NCBI GenBank assembly: GCA_949130485.1
Contig: OX422200.1
Span: 3,394,274 to 3,458,273 of the forward strand
Direction of reading: 5' to 3'
From: Agelas oroides
Lineage: Eukaryota; Porifera; Demospongiae; Agelasida; Agelasidae
Length of the DNA stretch: 64,000 nucleotides
Shown here: positions 36,455 to 49,900 of the stretch, one piece after another
Layout: each line of letters begins with the position of its first letter
Position numbering within the stretch: position 1 is the stretch's first letter
Made by a program: the position numbers and the translations under genes
The notes under the pieces: model-generated
Databases searched by the model: none
What the model was told of the DNA's origin: nothing
Seen by the model: only the letters and a program-made list of their open reading frames with translations

Positions 36455-37722
36455 CAGTGCTCTGAGCTGGAGGAACTCCCTGTTCACACATCACACACGG
36501 ATCACAACACACTCTGAGCTGAAGGAACCTGTTCACACATCACACACGGATCACAACACGCTCTGAGCTGGAGGAACCTGTTCACACATCACACATGGAT
36601 CATAACGCTCTGAGCTGGAGGAACCTGTTCACACATCACACACGGATCACAACACGCTCTGAGCTGGAGGAACCTGTTCACACATCATACACGGATCACA
36701 ACACACTCTGAGCTGGAGGAACTCCCTGTTCACACATCACACACAGATCACAACACGCTCTGAGCTGGAGGAACTCCCTGTTCACACATCACACACAGAT
36801 CACAACACGCTCTGAGCTGGAGGAACCTGTTCACACACCACACACAGATCACAACACGCTCTGAGCTGGAGGAACTCCCTGTTCACACATCACACACGGA
36901 TCACAACACACTCTGAGCTGGAGGAACCTGTTCACACATCACACACGGATCACAACACGCTCTGAGCTGGAGGAACCTGTTCACACATCACACATGGATC
37001 ATAACACGCTCTGAGCTGGAGGAACCTGTTCACACATCACACACGGATCACAACACGCTCTGAGCTGGAGGAACCTGTTCACACATCATACACGGATCAC
37101 AACACACTCTGAGCTGGAGGAACTCCCTGTTCACACATCACACACAGATCACAACACGCTCTGAGCTGGAGGAACTCCCTGTTCACACACCACACACAGA
37201 TCACAACACGCTCTGAGCTGGAGGAACTCCCTGTTCACACATCACACACGGATCACAACACACTCTGAGCTGGAGGAACCTGTTCACACATCACACATGG
37301 ATCACAACACGCTCTGAGCTGGAGGAACCTGTTCACACATCATACACGGATCACAACACGCTCTGAGCTGGAGGAACTCCCTGTTCACACATCACACATG
37401 GATCATAACACGCTCTGAGCTGGAGGAACCTGTTCACACATCACACACAGATCACAACACACTCTGAGCTGGAGGAACTCCCTGTTCACACATCACACAC
37501 GGATCACAACACGCTCTGAGCTGGAGGAACCTGTTCACACATCACACACGGATCACAACACACTCTGAGCTGGAGGAACTCCCTGTTCACACATCACACA
37601 CAGATCACAACACGCTCTGAGCTGGAGGAACTCCCTGTTCACACATCACACACAGATCACAACACGCTCTGAGCTGGAGGAACTCCCTGTTCACACATCA
37701 CACACAGATCACAACACGCTAC
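36455..37722. repeat. Satellite array of 50-57 bp units, about two dozen copies
   Basis: The unit contains CTCTGAGCTGGAGGAAC, TGTTCACACATCACACAC and GGATCACAACACG. Two length classes alternate, with or without an extra TCCC-type insert after GGAAC. Higher-order blocks recur (36500-36760 resembles 36900-37140). No coding frame runs through it. It lies between collagen B and YIPF6. Confidence 0.95.
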
Positions 37723-38103: not shown

Positions 38104-41100
38104 CTATACAAATGGTGTGTTCTGAGTTAGAATGAGGCAGCTAATTCCAAAGTAGAAGAGTACAATTGGATAAATGGCCAGGGCTTTCCGGTCTTCAGGG
38201 AGATAGTCGGACAAGAATCCGAGGGAGGCTGAGGGAGGGAGAAGGAATGACATATTACTCTCGTAGTATGTTACAAAGGTGGTCTACACTCCAAAACATG
38301 GTCACAGAGTGGTCACACTTGTTGCAGACTAACTAAAAAGGCAGTTTTTATTACTAATTGCACAATTCCAACTCGTTAATACTCTTCTACCATAGATCGG
38401 GAAATTTTCGTGGTAAAAATAATTTGCGTTTTAAATTTTTGCGTTAAAAATATTTCGTCACTCGACGGTTCCGCAATGTAGCACGTACATGTATATTTTA
38501 TTTTCGCGCGTTTAATTTTCGGCGCTCCCGCGCACTGCCAAAAATATTTTAACGGCGAAAATTTCCCAATCTACGGTATTCATTTATTATGCAAACTGAA
38601 GAATACAAAACAAATGGGGAAATAAGGCGGTTGGCCTGCCCTATGTTTTCTGGGTTGCCAGCTATTGGCTTCGTTCAGCACTCAACTCCTCCAAACCCAG
38701 CACTTAAGCTGTGAAGCATCCTCAGCACAGTTTTCCAGACTTTTATTGTCGAAAAAACACATTTCTCACCCCACATGGACCCCCAACGTTATCCAATTTC
38801 TCATCCCACATGGACCCCCATCGTTATCCTTCCTCACCCCACATGGACCCCTATCATCATCCTTCCTCACCCCACATGGACCCCCATCATCATCCTTCCT
38901 CACCCCACATGGACCCCTATCATCATCCTTCCTCACCCCACATGGACCCCTATCATTATCCTTCCTCACCCCACATGGACCCCTATCGTTATCGTTTAAT
39001 TTTCGGCGCTCCCGCGCACTGCCAAAAATATTTTAACGGCGAAAATTTCCCAATCTACGGTATTCATTTATTATGCAAACTGAAGAATACAAAACAAATG
39101 GGGAAATAAGGCGGTTGGCCTGCCCTATGTTTTCTGGGTTGCCAGCTATTGGCTTCGTTCAGCACTCAACTCCTCCAAACCCAGCACTTAAGCTGTGAAG
39201 CATCCTCAGCACAGTTTTCCAGACTTTTATTGTCGAAAAAACACATTTCTCACCCCACATGGACCCCCAACGTTATCCAATTTCTCATCCCACATGGACC
39301 CCCATCGTTATCCTTCCTCACCCCACATGGACCCCTATCATCATCCTTCCTCACCCCACATGGACCCCCATCATCATCCTTCCTCACCCCACATGGACCC
39401 CTATCATCATCCTTCCTCACCCCACATGGACCCCTATCATTATCCTTCCTCACCCCACATGGACCCCTATCGTTATCCTTCCTCACCCCACATGGACCCC
39501 TATCGTTATCCTTCCTCACCCCACATGGACCCTATCATCATCCTTCCTCACCCCACATGGACCCTATCATCAACATTCCTTACCCCACATGGACCCCTAT
39601 CATTATCCTTCCTCACCCAACATGGACCCCTATCATCATCCTTCCTCGCCCCACATGGACCCCCATCATCATCCTTCCTCACCCCACACGGATCCCTATC
39701 ATCATCCTTCCTCACCCAACATGGACCCCTATCATCATCCTTCCTCGCCCCACATGGACCCCTATCATTATCCTTCCTCACCCAACATGGACCCCTATCG
39801 TCATCCTTCCTCACCCCACATGGACCCCTATAATTATCCTTCCTCACCCCACATGGACCCCTATCATCATCCTTCCTCACCACACATGGACCCCTATCGT
39901 TATCCTTCCTCACCCTACACGGACCCCTATCGTTATCCTTCCTCACCCTACATGGACCCCTATCATCATCCTTCCTCACCCAACATGGACCCCCATCGTC
40001 ATCCTTCCTCACCCCACATGGACCCCTATCGTTATCCTTCCTCACCCCACATGGACTCCTATCATCATTCTTCCTCACCCCACATGGACCCTATCATCAT
40101 CCTTCCTCACCCAACATGGACCCCCATAATTATCCTTCCTCACCCCACATGGACTCCTATCATCATTCTTCCTCACCCCACATGGACCCCTATCATTATC
40201 CTTCCTCACCCCACATGGACCATAGGAAGGCAAGGGCAATGATGCTCAGTCTCAGTGAGAAGACAAGATTTGAGTGGGAGGGGAGGAAGGTGAGGAGAAT
40301 CCGGGAGATGAGAAGAGAGGTTGCCAGGGGTAGGAGACAGTAGCCAAGGGTACACACACTCTGGAAGAAAGATCTGTGTGAGGAAAGGAAGAGGTGGGGG
40401 GAGGGTTTAAAAAGGAGGAAGAAGAAAAGGGAGGGGGAAGAGGGAGTAGAGAGTGGAGAAATGATCACAGTAGACATAGCCAGAGATAGAGTCCTACACT
40501 GCACTGATAGCTAAGGACCAGAGGAGGGAGGACATCACATCATGTTCTAATAACATTCCATGGCAAGAATCGTGGATACAAGCTACAAGGATTGCTCTAT
40601 GGAGTAAGTCACAATGAGCACACATAGGGTTTTCGACTTAGCTGAAGCCCAAAGTGGTTGTTATGGCTCACCTCGCAGGCTGGTTCAATGCTAGGTACAT
40701 GTATGTAAGTCACAAAGAGCCATTTTGACTGCCAGACATCTTCAGCTTTGTCTTGTGCACCCATCGTGACTTGTTCATAGAGCCATTCTTGTAGCTAAAT
40801 ATCCATGCTTCCGGACCTTAAAACCTTGAAATGTCAGTTAATTGTCGCAATCACGTGACTGTGTCCTCCCTCCTCTAGCTAAGGAATAAAAGGTGAAATG
40901 GCTGAGACAGTTAGAACCTCCACTACGTACACTTTGCCTTTGAGTAGCTGTGCATTCACAGTCACCACAGCTGCTCCACCCCACACAATCAGAAACACGT
41001 CAATGAAGTGGATCGTGTGATCACTGAGGTCCTTGGAATGCCCATGCAACAAGCTGGGAGTGAGAGAGAGGTTACTCTTTCAATCCTGGAATTAACCCAT

Positions 41101-43741
41101 ATCTCCACACTATTTATCTTCAAACATCTGTCAAGGAGTCCTACAACTGCATTTCAAAGCTGCAGCAAATTCTTTTCGTGCCTTTGATGGCAGTGTGTAA
41201 CTCCCTCAATGCCATTTTGCTGATTACTGTCAGTGGTGTAACCAGAATGTGAGTACACCAAATTTGCAAGAGCTTGAAGCACGGAAGAACACAGGGTATG
41301 CTCCCCCTTGATTTTAGAGCCTCTTGGTTCACTTTTAGAGCAGTTTTAGGCCATTGATATTTATCAAGAGCACTTCTTCTCACTATGTCTTACATGTACT
41401 TGTGCATGCCGTAGATCTCCACCAGAAACCATATTTTGATTTTGGTCCACGCGTGGAATAACGCGGTCTGAGCACAGATGCCTTGGTCTGAGTGATCTAA
41501 TGATATAATTGCATCTGTATAGCATCATAAAGCTTGAAAAAATAGTTTGACAAACAAAATAAGTTACTGGGATTTGCCAACTTGTGCAAATAGAGGGTGT
41601 TGTGCTTTAATTAGAATGATACCATAGCCAAATCGGCAAGCCAGTGCGACATACTACCTAGTTATGTTTAAAGAATTTCAAATGTTTTGTTCTTATGCTT
41701 TGGAGGACTGTAAATGGTTTTTTGCCGCTCTTCTGTGTATTATACATGTACTGAATGCCAACCAATGAACCGTTGAAAAACGGGGGAAGCCTGGGAACGA
41801 GGCTAACACATATACATAGTGTGTGTATTTTACTGGTTAAAAATTTCCAGGTATGTCTCCTGAACGTGTTGTCAGAGAAATCAGGTGTGCTACATCATGC
41901 ATACCATACTGACTCACAGTGCCATTGAGATGCAGAGAAGGAGCGGCCCCCAGAGATCCCCTGGAAATGGAAGAGGGGAGAGGAGGGAAGAGGAGAGAAA
42001 ATTACTATTATACAGTGGCACTCTGCTTAACGGACACCCCTCAACAGCGGACATCCACAATATAACGGACAATTGCGAAAGTCCCGATTGCCCTTCCATT
42101 CACTTCAATACTTAAGCAACCCCTGAATAGCAGACACCCCGCTACTCCGTACAACGGACAGTTTTTGCGGTCCCAATTGTATGCAAACAATAATTAACGA
42201 CTCCGATTTAGTGGACACTCGTCAACCTTTTCAGCAGGATTGTCCACCATCACTGCTGGAGTTAACAACATGACATTAGATTAGTGCTGTTACTCATAGT
42301 ACTAGCCTCTGCTTATGCTTCCCCACCAGTGTACAGCAAGGGAAAGCAAAACGCAGCCATGTTGTGCTCAACAGCCCGATTATGCAGTACCATGCCTACC
42401 GGAAATATATTGGAAGCCCCTGAGTTAGGGACACCTCGCTATAAGGGACAAAATGTTGGTTCCCAATGGTGTCTGCTATAGAGGGGTTCCACTGAAACAC
42501 CCTAAGCCTCGTATCAGAAAAAGAGCCTGGTATCCACTGTTTGCAGATGTGCTTAATTTCCCATAATCTTGGGAAATCGGGAACAATTATGTTATATCCA
42601 TAAAACTGTGACATCATTAATGCATACTTACTGTCACACCTAGCCTCGTTCCCAGGCCTTCCCCGGCTCCAGTTTTTGATCGCTTACAGTATGCAAAAAC
42701 TATTCTGACCAACAATGGGGTTCCTTTGATTGTTCATTTTCCTGCGCCCTTCAATGGCTAGGTACTTCTGATATGAGTCTCAAGACAGCACAAGTAGCCT
42801 CTGTTTCAGATGTTGGTTTGGGGACAAATGTGTTTATATGGCTGTCATATAAAGTGTTACCGTTTATCATAGACTGTAAGCTGATAGCGAAGCAGGGTGG
42901 TGTAGCGCTAGTAGTAGTAGTGTAGTTGTTTCACTCTTTGCTGCACGGTACTATACTAGTATACCATACTAAAATGCTATGTCACACTATCAATCACATG
43001 GATGCATGTACATGTTCCCCTCCCACTATTGTTTGAACACGTTCAGCAGTGAAAAATTACGCACATGTGCGAACAGTAGATACAAGGCTCTATTTTCACC
43101 CCATCCACTGAGAGCCTGGGTACAAGGCTAAATATATTGATGAAGATTATAGTGTGGTTGGCTTATGGATTATTACTGTAGCAAAGTTGGACTTCCATTA
43201 ACTTTCCTAGCAGGAAATATTTCATGGCAATATGACAGGATACACACAAGCAGGGTCTCACAGTCGTGCAGCAGTGCCTTGTTGGACCGCACCGGTACCA
43301 CCACATGAAGACACTTTCTTAGGATAGCCCTCAGGTCACGTTTCTGGAGAGAAAGGAATACAAGTTGTTGTGTAAAAATTGTACATCATTCCATTAACTT
43401 AGGATATGCTTATGACATAGCTATCCTTTGGTTTGGGACAGTCTTCTACACCACGGGACATAGTGTACAGAAATTTGCACATAGGCCAACAGAGATATCT
43501 GGGCGTTCTGTGGCAATAAGTCAATAGAGGGTGAAGTTAGTTCGGATCCTAGACCCATTCTCTCCCCGTCTAAAGGCAGCACAACTTAGTCTTGTTCACA
43601 GACCACATTTTTCGCGCCCGCCTCTCTACTCACCAGCGTGGCCGACACGGGCTCGTCCAGGGTTCCCTCCTCCTCCTCCTCCTCCAGTGGAGGAGAGACA
43701 TAGATCTCCCCACTCACCTCTTCGCTTGCCATCAACGCCAT
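38104..43741 (-). CDS. YIPF6: YIPF6, Yip1-domain Golgi/ER membrane protein
   Basis: YIPF6 is a five-pass membrane protein of the Yip1 family acting in ER-Golgi and Golgi trafficking. Exons: 43741-43634, 43343-43262, 41960-41918, 41053-40931, 40373-40210 and 38228-38104. Phases 0, 1, 2, 2 and 1 join without a break, giving 214 residues (human about 236). Matches to the family: an acidic N-terminus (PPLEEEEEEGTLDE), KALLHDWDLWGPLLLCISMA, FLIVWGGAAVVTVNAQLL, SFFQSVCTLGYCLLPLATS, and KALAIYPIVLFYFGISCLIL just before the stop. Donor GTACGT after AAAGT gives the correct GKVSFFQS junction. The last intron (about 2 kb) contains a MITE and a 33-bp satellite that includes the exon-5 donor itself. A second Met four codons in is an alternative start. 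Confidence 0.93.
38388..38578. mobile_element. MITE, GGGAAATTTTCG family
   Basis: Ends TACCATAGATCGGGAAATTT and (inverse) AAATTTCCCAATCTACGGTA, 191 bp. Its right half is repeated near 38994-39062 as part of a 484-bp tandem duplication. It lies in YIPF6 intron 5. Confidence 0.85.
38511..39478. repeat. 484-bp tandem duplication
   Basis: 38511-38994 and 38995-39478 are nearly identical. Each copy holds half of a MITE, about 190 bp of intron sequence and the first seven units of the 33-bp satellite. The duplication accounts for two identical N-terminal frames starting at 38665 and 39149. Confidence 0.9.
38766..40222 (-). repeat. 33-bp satellite (about 36 units) that includes the YIPF6 exon-5 donor
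   Basis: Seven units at 38766-38999 and about 29 at 39250-40222, with consensus core CCTCACCCCACATGGACCCC. Read on the gene strand, the core is GGTCCATGTGGGGTGAGG. This equals the last 12 bases of YIPF6 exon 5 plus its donor GTGAGG. The 33-bp period keeps all frames open for hundreds of codons (units of 11 residues such as SSPHMDPYHHP); these are artefacts. Confidence 0.9.
40618..40765. mobile_element. MITE with GGGTTTTCnACTtAGCTGAAG end
   Basis: CATAGGGTTTTCGACTTAGC on the left and a weaker inverse near 40745 on the right. The same family appears more cleanly at 53499-53655. It lies in YIPF6 intron 4. Confidence 0.5.
42013..42494. mobile_element. pogo/Tigger-like MITE in YIPF6 intron 2
   Basis: Left end CAGTGGCACTCTGCTTAACG after a TA; right end (inverse) CAGTGGAACCCCTCTATAGC. 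Internal ACGGACA motifs recur. A related end occurs near 63600-63620 (GAGGGGTTCCACTG). Non-coding. Confidence 0.8.
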
Positions 43742-46951: not shown

Positions 46952-49900
46952 ATGTCCCGGAGTTCTCGTAAGTTTCTGGTTTGTACACCGTGATAGGCCT
47001 AAGCAACACGGTTACAAGATCGACATGTCATGATATAAAAGTAGCAATCTAATCACTAGCACTCGACAAGAGTGTACTGTGTCTAGGCACGAACCAGAAG
47101 GGGTATAAGGTGTGCTCTCCAGATTGGCAGCACACAGATGCATCGTGGAACTGTGTCTTCGTTTTTTTTATAATAGGCCTATTACGAGCATATTAACCAC
47201 ACCCCAAGATGCCTCATAAGAGGTTAGTGCTGCAGGTTTACCTTGGCTTGAACACTTTAGAGTTCAGTGCTATACGTAGGTAAAATGTTTGTTAGTAGGC
47301 TTTAGGAAAACAAAGTTCACTGCTACTTATTACAAGACCTGAAGTAGAAGGCTTTAGAGATCAGGATTTGTGCTGCAAATTTACCTTGGTCAAAATGTCC
47401 GTTGAGTCTTCTGATGAGTCATGATACGTTAGAGTTATTAGATGTTAGAGGCCAACAAGTGTTGTATTATTTGGAGTTTGATGCACTCATGATCTCTTGG
47501 TATCTGTATCCTGTACAGCTGCCTACACTCGTCTTCGTCAGGAAGGTGATGACGATGAACTAGTGTCTCCAGTTGCTGGTGAGGATGTGAAGCCACTGGA
47601 ACCACCAGCATCACAACAGACACCTCTGGTAGCTGAAACAAGGGAGGAAGCTCCTGAGACAGCACTGCCAATTCAGTCTGGCCATGAGCCAGCTATGTCC
47701 ACAGCTATGCCACCCCCTGAGTACCAGCCAGCTGCAGTGCCGGTGGGACTACCACCTGGACAGCAACCAGCTGGAGTGCCGGTGGGACTACCACCTGGAC
47801 AGCAACCAGCTGGAGTGCCGGTGGGACTACCACCTGGACAGCAACCAGCTGGAGTGCCGGTGGGACTACCACCTGGACAGCAACCAGCTGGAGTGCCGGT
47901 GGGACTACCACCTGGACAGCAACCAGCTGGAGTGCCACTGACTGGATTCACACCAGTAGCAGCTGCTACTGCAATGAACACAACCACAGTGAGTTGATGA
48001 TGGGTAATGGCCTGCCCTGACATAGTTGAGTATCTTTCGCTTGTGTATAGAGGAATTGCATTAACATTATAACATTGTCATACAAGTCATGTGCGCCACT
48101 TGGAAGGCAAAATGGCACTTTTCAGTGGGGTTTTTGTACTAGTGCATCAAGCTTCCTTCTCTAGCAATCCTATAAGTACCATTTCTTTCAAGTACAGGTA
48201 TGTTGAAAGTCCATACTAACCCTCTGCATAGTCTAAAATTGAAGCTAAACACATGCTCCTACCTCGAAACAAGCCCGTAGAATAGACTCACCATATAATT
48301 TTTTGTATACACTTCAATCACTTGCCTTCCAACATGGTGGGATGTATATGGAAAGTATCGTAGTGATGAAGTTTGTAGTACAGCCTCCAAAAAGTGAGGT
48401 GAGGCGTGGGAACAAGGCCACACCCAATCTTGCATGTCCATGTAGACAATTACTGAAGCATGCATGATATTTTCTAAGTGGTTACTAACTTATTACACCA
48501 TGGTGGAACAACAACAGTGAAGGTAGCTCTGTATGTTTATTTGTGCAATTTGCAGAAGCTACACAGTGTACATTCTGCCTAGGCTTGATCATTGACGACT
48601 GTGGAGACTCACTTTTTACATGACATACTAGCCTCGTACCCAGGCTCCTCCCCATGCCGAAAAGCGGGAGACGCTGCATCATAATTATTCAAGGAACAAA
48701 AAAGCATGGTTACTGGGTACGAGGCTATGACATACTGCAAGCGATCAAAAAGTGGACAGTGGGAAGGCCTGGGAACGAGGCTAATGGAGACTCACTTTGT
48801 GCATGAATGAAAGCAGGTGGTTATGGCATCACATGCTAGTTTACATAGCACCCACATGTGATAACATTGCATGCTGTGATACCTCCATTATGTCGAACAT
48901 TGTTCAAATTGATAACAATTGTGTGCTTTTGTGACAGCCATGTGTCTATTGGCAGTTGTCACTATTGTCATGGGACCCTATATTTGCATTGAACATTATG
49001 GCTAAAGCAAGTATCTTCCCATTCTGATAAATGGTCATGTACATGAGTAGCTACAATGCAGCTCATGTACACATGCTAATGGCAGTATACAATACACTTC
49101 CCCTAGCATGCAAGCTCTTTTTTCAGCTGTGTTTTTTTACACTAGGTTGGACTTATTATCTGGAATCGTTGTGCCTGTTCCAAGTTCTTTCAGCCCCGTT
49201 GTACTCATCTCTGCGACACAGCTTGATTATTGTATGCTTCATGTAACAAGTTCATGATGAATTCTTCATGTGGGCAAAGGGTCTTAAGTATTGTTTGTCG
49301 ACACCATCCCAGCTTAGTCTACTGACTCTTTGATATCTTAATATTAAATTTATAACAAGAGATTCATAAAGTTGCCCCAAAGCATCTCGGAAAACAGCTA
49401 AGTGCAAACGTTCCTGCTAGGTACAGGATTATGTCATACTTTCATTCATATTGGACATGCATAAGATGACTATAGCATATGTACGACGTTAGCGCAGTAC
49501 ACATTAGATGGTGAAGTGCATGTAGTCGTCTGCAGTGGCTTGTGGCCAATTGGTTAGGGCTTAGTGCTACAGTTATTAGGTTTAGGGTAGGGCTTGGGCC
49601 AGGGGATGGTCTTCTTTTTTGTCTGTCTTGAAATGTGACAAACACCTTTGTCTTGTTCTCCTGACCTGGTTTGTCTGTGTCAGACATCAATAGCCGTTTG
49701 CGTTAGCACTTGTAGCAATGCTGACATAAGTATGATGTAATGCGATATAAACTGTGGTATGGCAGTGAGACTAGGTAGAAACTGACAGCAACCACTGATA
49801 CGCTTATACTTAATGGAAAAGGACGTTTCTGACTCAAAGCAGGTCTTCTTCCCATGCCTCACATAGCAGTGTGTAGCAGAATGCATACATCTCATGGAAA

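Follow-up and report, generated by a model that had tools for sequence, protein, structure and literature searches.

The YIPF6 gene of the sponge Agelas oroides carries, from the very end of its exon 5 into the following intron, a tandem array of 33-bp units, the first of which comprises the edge of the exon together with its splice donor. We consider it likely that this array is a locus-specific minisatellite that was born across the exon-intron border and is carried as a tolerated passenger, with most splicing going through the first donor. This reading draws on the anatomy of the array, its source in coding sequence, its absence elsewhere in the assembly, the greater age of the intron that holds it, and the predicted pairing of its donors with U1.

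The YIPF6 gene and its repeat array

YIPF6 is encoded on the minus strand of the window, i.e. of the whole analysed stretch of 64,000 nucleotides, and its model was derived from homology and reading frame (Table 1). The joined product of exons 3-6 is 68% identical to YIPF6 of Halichondria panicea and Ephydatia muelleri and matches the Pfam Yip1 domain with E = 1e-10; the best named matches come from sponges (Halichondria, Ephydatia, Dysidea and Geodia). Homology to YIPF6 stops at the predicted donor of exon 5, and the joining of exon 5 (40373-40210) to exon 6 (from 38228) yields YIPF6 sequence, with ...WSMWASLGFLSDYLPEDRK... across the junction. Both acceptors, those of exons 5 and 6, are preceded by about 90% pyrimidine over 20 nt (for exon 5 the stretch is offset by one base). 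The window contains other tandem repeats as well: a second large array with a 49-bp unit in about 25 copies (36459-37720) lies approximately 380 bp past the YIPF6 stop codon, and a 39-bp repeat of 5.4 copies with 99% matches (47728-47936) lies inside minus-strand open stretches.

Table 1. Positions in the window of the YIPF6 exons, of the repeat units and of other features of intron 5.
Feature	Position	Strand	Remarks
YIPF6 exon 1, coding region	43634-43741	minus	extent of tblastn match, from Met; edges approximate
YIPF6 exon 2, region	43239-43343	minus	extent of tblastn match, overruns likely donor; edges approximate
YIPF6 exon 3	41918-41960	minus	edges inferred from frame and GT/AG
YIPF6 exon 4	40931-41053	minus	edges inferred from frame and GT/AG
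YIPF6 exon 5, 164 nt	40210-40373	minus	ends in ...TTCCTATGGTCCATGTGGG; last 12 nt belong to the first repeat unit
First 33-bp unit	40189-40221	minus	12 exonic and 21 intronic nt; donor GTGAGG from 40209
YIPF6 intron 5, 1981 nt	38229-40209	minus	
Intronic units 2-30, most 33 bp	39248-40188	minus	last two (39300, 39265) degenerate
Units 31-37	38764-38981	minus	duplicates of units 24-30
Perfect 484-bp tandem duplication, two copies	38509-39476		carries seven units, other intron sequence and right part of MITE-like element
MITE-like element in intron 5	38388-38578		38-nt imperfect inverted ends, 84% complementary
YIPF6 exon 6, coding part without stop codon	38107-38228	minus	acceptor TCAG directly before 38228

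The 33-bp unit is present in 37 copies, 36 of which lie within intron 5. A search with the 18-nt core GGTCCATGTGGGGTGAGG and up to four mismatches located all 37 between 40221 and 38781 of the minus strand, in agreement with the initial annotation, which had described the 12 bases at the end of exon 5, together with its donor, as the core of the repeat and had placed about 36 units in the downstream intron. TRF describes the array in two rows, 38765-38993 and 39249-40221. The spacing between successive core copies is 33 nt in 30 of 36 cases, 32 nt in three and 35 nt in two; the single remaining spacing of 284 nt exists because a 484-bp tandem duplication, missing from the initial annotation, splits the array. 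Its two copies, 38509-38992 and 38993-39476, are identical at 484/484 positions. This duplication copied seven units, and therefore only 30 of the 37 units are independent.

The first unit, which spans the exon border, is identical over 33 bp to one of the 27 other full independent units and 88-97% identical (ungapped) to the other 26, a likeness that is far beyond chance. Mean pairwise identity among the 28 full units is 92% and shows no decay with distance over lags 1-12, and the most degenerate are the two independent units that lie farthest from exon 5. It could be suspected that the array itself is real but that the assembly gives its length wrongly, by error or by merging haplotypes, particularly at the 484-bp duplication, as the perfect 484/484 identity inside a tandem array might suggest. 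However, the independent units differ among themselves, at the mean identity given above, and the array is therefore not one unit multiplied by error. We regard such an effect as unlikely; it would be compatible with our main reading, and both the copy number and the 484-bp duplication are known from a single assembly.

Origin of the repeat unit and age of the intron

When the core was searched with at most one mismatch in the 259-Mb assembly, all 33 matches fell on the YIPF6 array and none was found at any other locus, while the reversed-pattern control gave one match. The satellite was thus not found at unrelated loci, the occurrence that the initial annotation had considered as evidence against its reading, and with 33/33 core matches at the YIPF6 locus we reject a dispersed satellite or a transposon-derived repeat. 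A survey of genome matches to the locus, in which simple repeats were skipped and 40 of 172 candidates were scored, placed the other matches within the right end of the MITE-like element, over about 70 bp, and not on the 33-bp unit. This right end has dozens of matches genome-wide. The genome matches, the alignment of YIPF6 and the identities among the units all stand against an unrelated satellite that resembles the exon edge by coincidence, which we likewise reject.

Strong donors in minisatellites were counted in a sample made up of the window and 20 sampled 10-kb stretches, from two contigs, with a period of at least 12. They occur in 3 of 29 arrays of at least three copies, versus 2.2 expected from shuffles, and in 3 of 15 arrays of at least five copies, versus 1.1 expected, both being small samples. 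Two of the three donor-bearing arrays are the two TRF rows of the YIPF6 array. The third, an 81-bp repeat at L036 5985-6441, reads like a coding repeat, and its donor-like site is probably due to chance.

For the origin of the unit we turn to exon 5 in other sources. A survey with exon 5 and its read-through as the query gave 328 matches, the best 120 of which were listed with at least 77 new ids (P0121-P0197); the 41 frames examined are P0121-P0161, with 36 new ids left out, and their division into 21 "sponge-like" and 20 "other" frames follows a short signature in their own sequence, not taxonomy. The 12 exonic nucleotides of the unit encode W-S-M-W, the first W of which is invariant in 16/16 aligned YIPF6 proteins (that of the window included), and W-S-x-W is present in 13 of the 21 sponge-like frames. 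The end of exon 5 is constrained coding sequence, and therefore the exon is the source and the array its copy.

The frames also bear on the age of the intron. All 41 leave YIPF6 sequence at the same position, and the next residues are G-E in 20, G-K in 15, G-N in five and G-M in one, as expected if they were read from a phase-1 intron starting with G/GT; G-E, the pair found in the YIPF6 of the window, follows in 17 of the 21 sponge-like frames. Since the frames run on after the same place in 41/41 cases, intron 5 predates the array. Several of them are near-duplicates, so that they do not represent 41 independent species, and because they were found through being unspliced here, they indicate a widespread, not a universal, intron. 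Six sponge-like frames cross a short in-frame intron (39, 57, 60, 69, 123 and 147 nt) into exon 6; read-through frames reveal only short open introns, and intron 5 in the window is 1981 nt long. In two sponge-like YIPF6 frames, P0138 and P0143, exon 5 follows directly upon exon 4 and is itself followed by intron 5, and in P0138 exons earlier than exon 4 are joined too; both look as if they were transcripts that retain intron 5.

It is tempting to relate the array to the AGGT-duplication model of intron gain, according to which a tandem duplication of coding sequence would itself have made intron 5. The unit is indeed partly coding sequence, and PMC4974935 describes the model together with cases of tandem duplication of segments carrying splice signals, including one in potato that crosses an exon-intron border. 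This type of duplication is common to those cases and to YIPF6. However, all 41 other exon-5 frames leave YIPF6 at one position, as expected of a shared intron, and in contrast to intron gain the YIPF6 intron is older than the array, with no sign of a new intron. With the orthologous intron shared by 41/41 frames we reject this origin, to which we give practically no credence. On the other hand, the exon-edge amplification proposed in the initial annotation is borne out by the derivation of the unit from coding sequence, the lack of matches elsewhere in the assembly and the fact that the intron predates the array.

Predicted donors and the consequences of their use

A GT donor with a predicted U1 duplex of -8.6 kcal/mol or better is kept in 33 of 37 units; in the other four, which the initial annotation did not mention, GT is replaced by GC (two units) or AT (two units). 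The donor of exon 5, GGG/GTGAGG, has a predicted pairing energy of -9.8 kcal/mol, which is tied by 26 array copies, while the best GT outside the array, of the 166 that exon 5 and intron 5 contain, reaches -5.1 kcal/mol. Besides the exon 5 donor, the repeats thus contain 32 strong predicted U1 sites. These scores are energies of pairing with U1, not the output of a trained donor model, and the U1 end used was of the human type, which we assume for this gene.

Variation among the 28 full units can be counted in two ways. The variable sites are 2/6 in the donor hexamer, 5/12 in the exonic part and 7/15 in the rest, which gives no clear sign of selection on the donor copies. Counted as minority letters, however, the donor hexamer (3/168, 1.8%) is the least variable part compared to the exonic part (13/336, 3.9%) and the rest (31/420, 7.4%), a result that lends no support to neutrality. 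Because of the common descent of the units, these figures are no test, and weak selection is still allowed.

RNA structure does not single the first donor out, since in local folds it is no more accessible (0.034) than the other 36 are at the median (0.065), and we reject on the same grounds the idea that the copies are hidden by folding. We also considered the repeats as tiny exons and rejected this: the AG in the one unit that was inspected has no pyrimidine tract before it (15% pyrimidine over 20 nt, versus 90% before exons 5 and 6).

Reading on in frame past exon 5 gives GGT GAG GAA GGA and then a stop, the first stop lying 11 nt past the end of the exon, so that the initial annotation was right in stating that stops are met at once. 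An in-frame stop was counted in 33 of 37 units, and the retention of any unit would give ...WSMWGEEG-stop. Since the same early stop is met whichever unit is kept, all later donors give one identical truncated protein, a predicted YIPF6 without the hydrophobic stretch of exon 6. Only the first donor is thus predicted to yield the protein, as had been proposed, and the stop-containing RNA would probably be destroyed by nonsense-mediated decay. With the last donor in use, exon 5 would reach about 1.6 kb, and exon length may favour the first one.

We therefore propose the following scenario for the array as a tolerated minisatellite. In this lineage, 33 bp across the border of exon 5 and intron 5 (12 nt of exon and 21 nt of intron) would have been duplicated in tandem, and the array would have expanded to about 30 units through slippage or unequal exchange, the complete donor travelling with each copy; the 484-bp duplication would later have raised the number from about 30 to 37. 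Splicing would mostly join the first copy to exon 6, because only the first copy makes protein, and the occasional use of a later copy would leave units in an RNA that meets an immediate stop and is probably lost to decay. The array would then most likely be a nearly neutral passenger.

The preference for the first donor is not without difficulty. According to the Discussion of PMC5933811, which cites other work on this point, when U1 occupies two donors separated by more than 40 nt, the downstream one is preferred, and if this rule held by analogy, the first copy should lose. The same paper also describes the opposite pull, where U1 bound downstream helps the exon, e.g. in PAH, where U1 downstream of exon 11 promotes its inclusion. 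It is conceivable that U1 on the repeats helps to define exon 5 and strengthens the use of the first donor, i.e. that the array is a splicing enhancer, in keeping with the 32 strong predicted sites beyond the real donor. However, the exon 5 donor is already strong by prediction and the acceptor is preceded by the pyrimidine-rich stretch mentioned above, while the six sponge-like frames with a very short intron have no room for such an array; an enhancer function thus appears very improbable to us.

Comparison with known systems

The closest precedent for a tolerated array at an exon edge is the VNTR in intron 18 of human ABCA7, where, according to PMC5954066, the unit is 25 bp long, the array opens with the two donor bases of exon 18, and alleles range from about 12 to 427 units. 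As in YIPF6, the array abuts an exon, the first unit holds the authentic donor (inferred for YIPF6 from homology and frame), a later unit offers a usable donor (a predicted one in YIPF6, where 33 of 37 units have donors of similar predicted strength), and a kept unit leads to a premature stop. The two differ in that the ABCA7 unit starts from GT and copies no exon codons, whereas the 33-bp unit of YIPF6 includes them. The isoform that retains one ABCA7 unit amounts to 2 +/- 1% (assigned from the order in which PMC5954066 lists the two frameshift isoforms). This is the steady-state level of an RNA that is exposed to decay, and it does not change with VNTR length. By analogy, this retention of about 2% agrees with the statement in the initial annotation that splicing has to tolerate the YIPF6 array.

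Longer ABCA7 arrays, on the other hand, go along with more skipping of exon 19 and with lower expression (PMC5954066). Although its later donors see little use, the ABCA7 array is thus not neutral, which by analogy speaks against a neutral passenger in YIPF6. However, the next exon of YIPF6 is the last coding one, and therefore skipping of the ABCA7 type would not apply in the same way.

ABCA7 also bears on the alternative that the YIPF6 array is a copy-number switch, which would compete for U1 and for the acceptor, so that more copies give more stop-containing RNA and less YIPF6, and expansions and contractions tune its expression. This would be in keeping with the 26 copies that tie the exon 5 donor at -9.8 kcal/mol (compared to -5.1 for the best GT outside the array), with the same truncated end WSMWGEEG-stop from every retained unit, with the perfect 484-bp duplication, which suggests a recent change in copy number, with the donor hexamer being least variable by single bases, and with the drop of ABCA7 expression with array length (PMC5954066). 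However, counted by sites the donor is roughly as variable as the rest of the unit, the unit-retention isoform of ABCA7 is unchanged with length, and in the available part of PMC5954066 the authors do not attribute the fall in expression to decay. Such a switch therefore seems to us rather unlikely. Still less probable, in our estimation, is its strong form, a heritable rheostat in which some 32 U1-binding donor decoys would channel YIPF6 pre-mRNA into RNA with stops, in a share that depends on copy number; if it were true, array length would set the dose of this membrane protein in the sponge population.

A minisatellite in human IFI6 (6-16/G1P3) was reportedly described by Turri et al. 1995. 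Two of its downstream repeat units act as donors, according to PMC4526556, and in this respect it resembles YIPF6, in which a minisatellite is predicted to supply several donors for one exon. However, the downstream units of IFI6 yield different protein isoforms, whereas YIPF6 meets a stop at once: its in-frame stop precedes the second donor, and longer isoforms from later donors, as in IFI6, are not predicted. A minisatellite near alternative exons is also mentioned for a worm in PMC4039745. We found no publication that describes an array of this kind in YIPF6 or in sponges, which is weak evidence of absence, from a search that covered little of the subscription literature. The basic arrangement is already known; what distinguishes YIPF6 is that exon codons are copied together with the donor and that the host is a sponge.

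Implications

The YIPF6 array constitutes a natural experiment on the choice of splice donors, with dozens of near-identical donors that have the same flanks and are mostly 33 nt apart. As only the donor proximal to the exon is predicted to be productive, the array bears on how strictly splicing prefers the first donor. It also suggests that ABCA7-like minisatellites at the edges of exons exist well beyond vertebrates.
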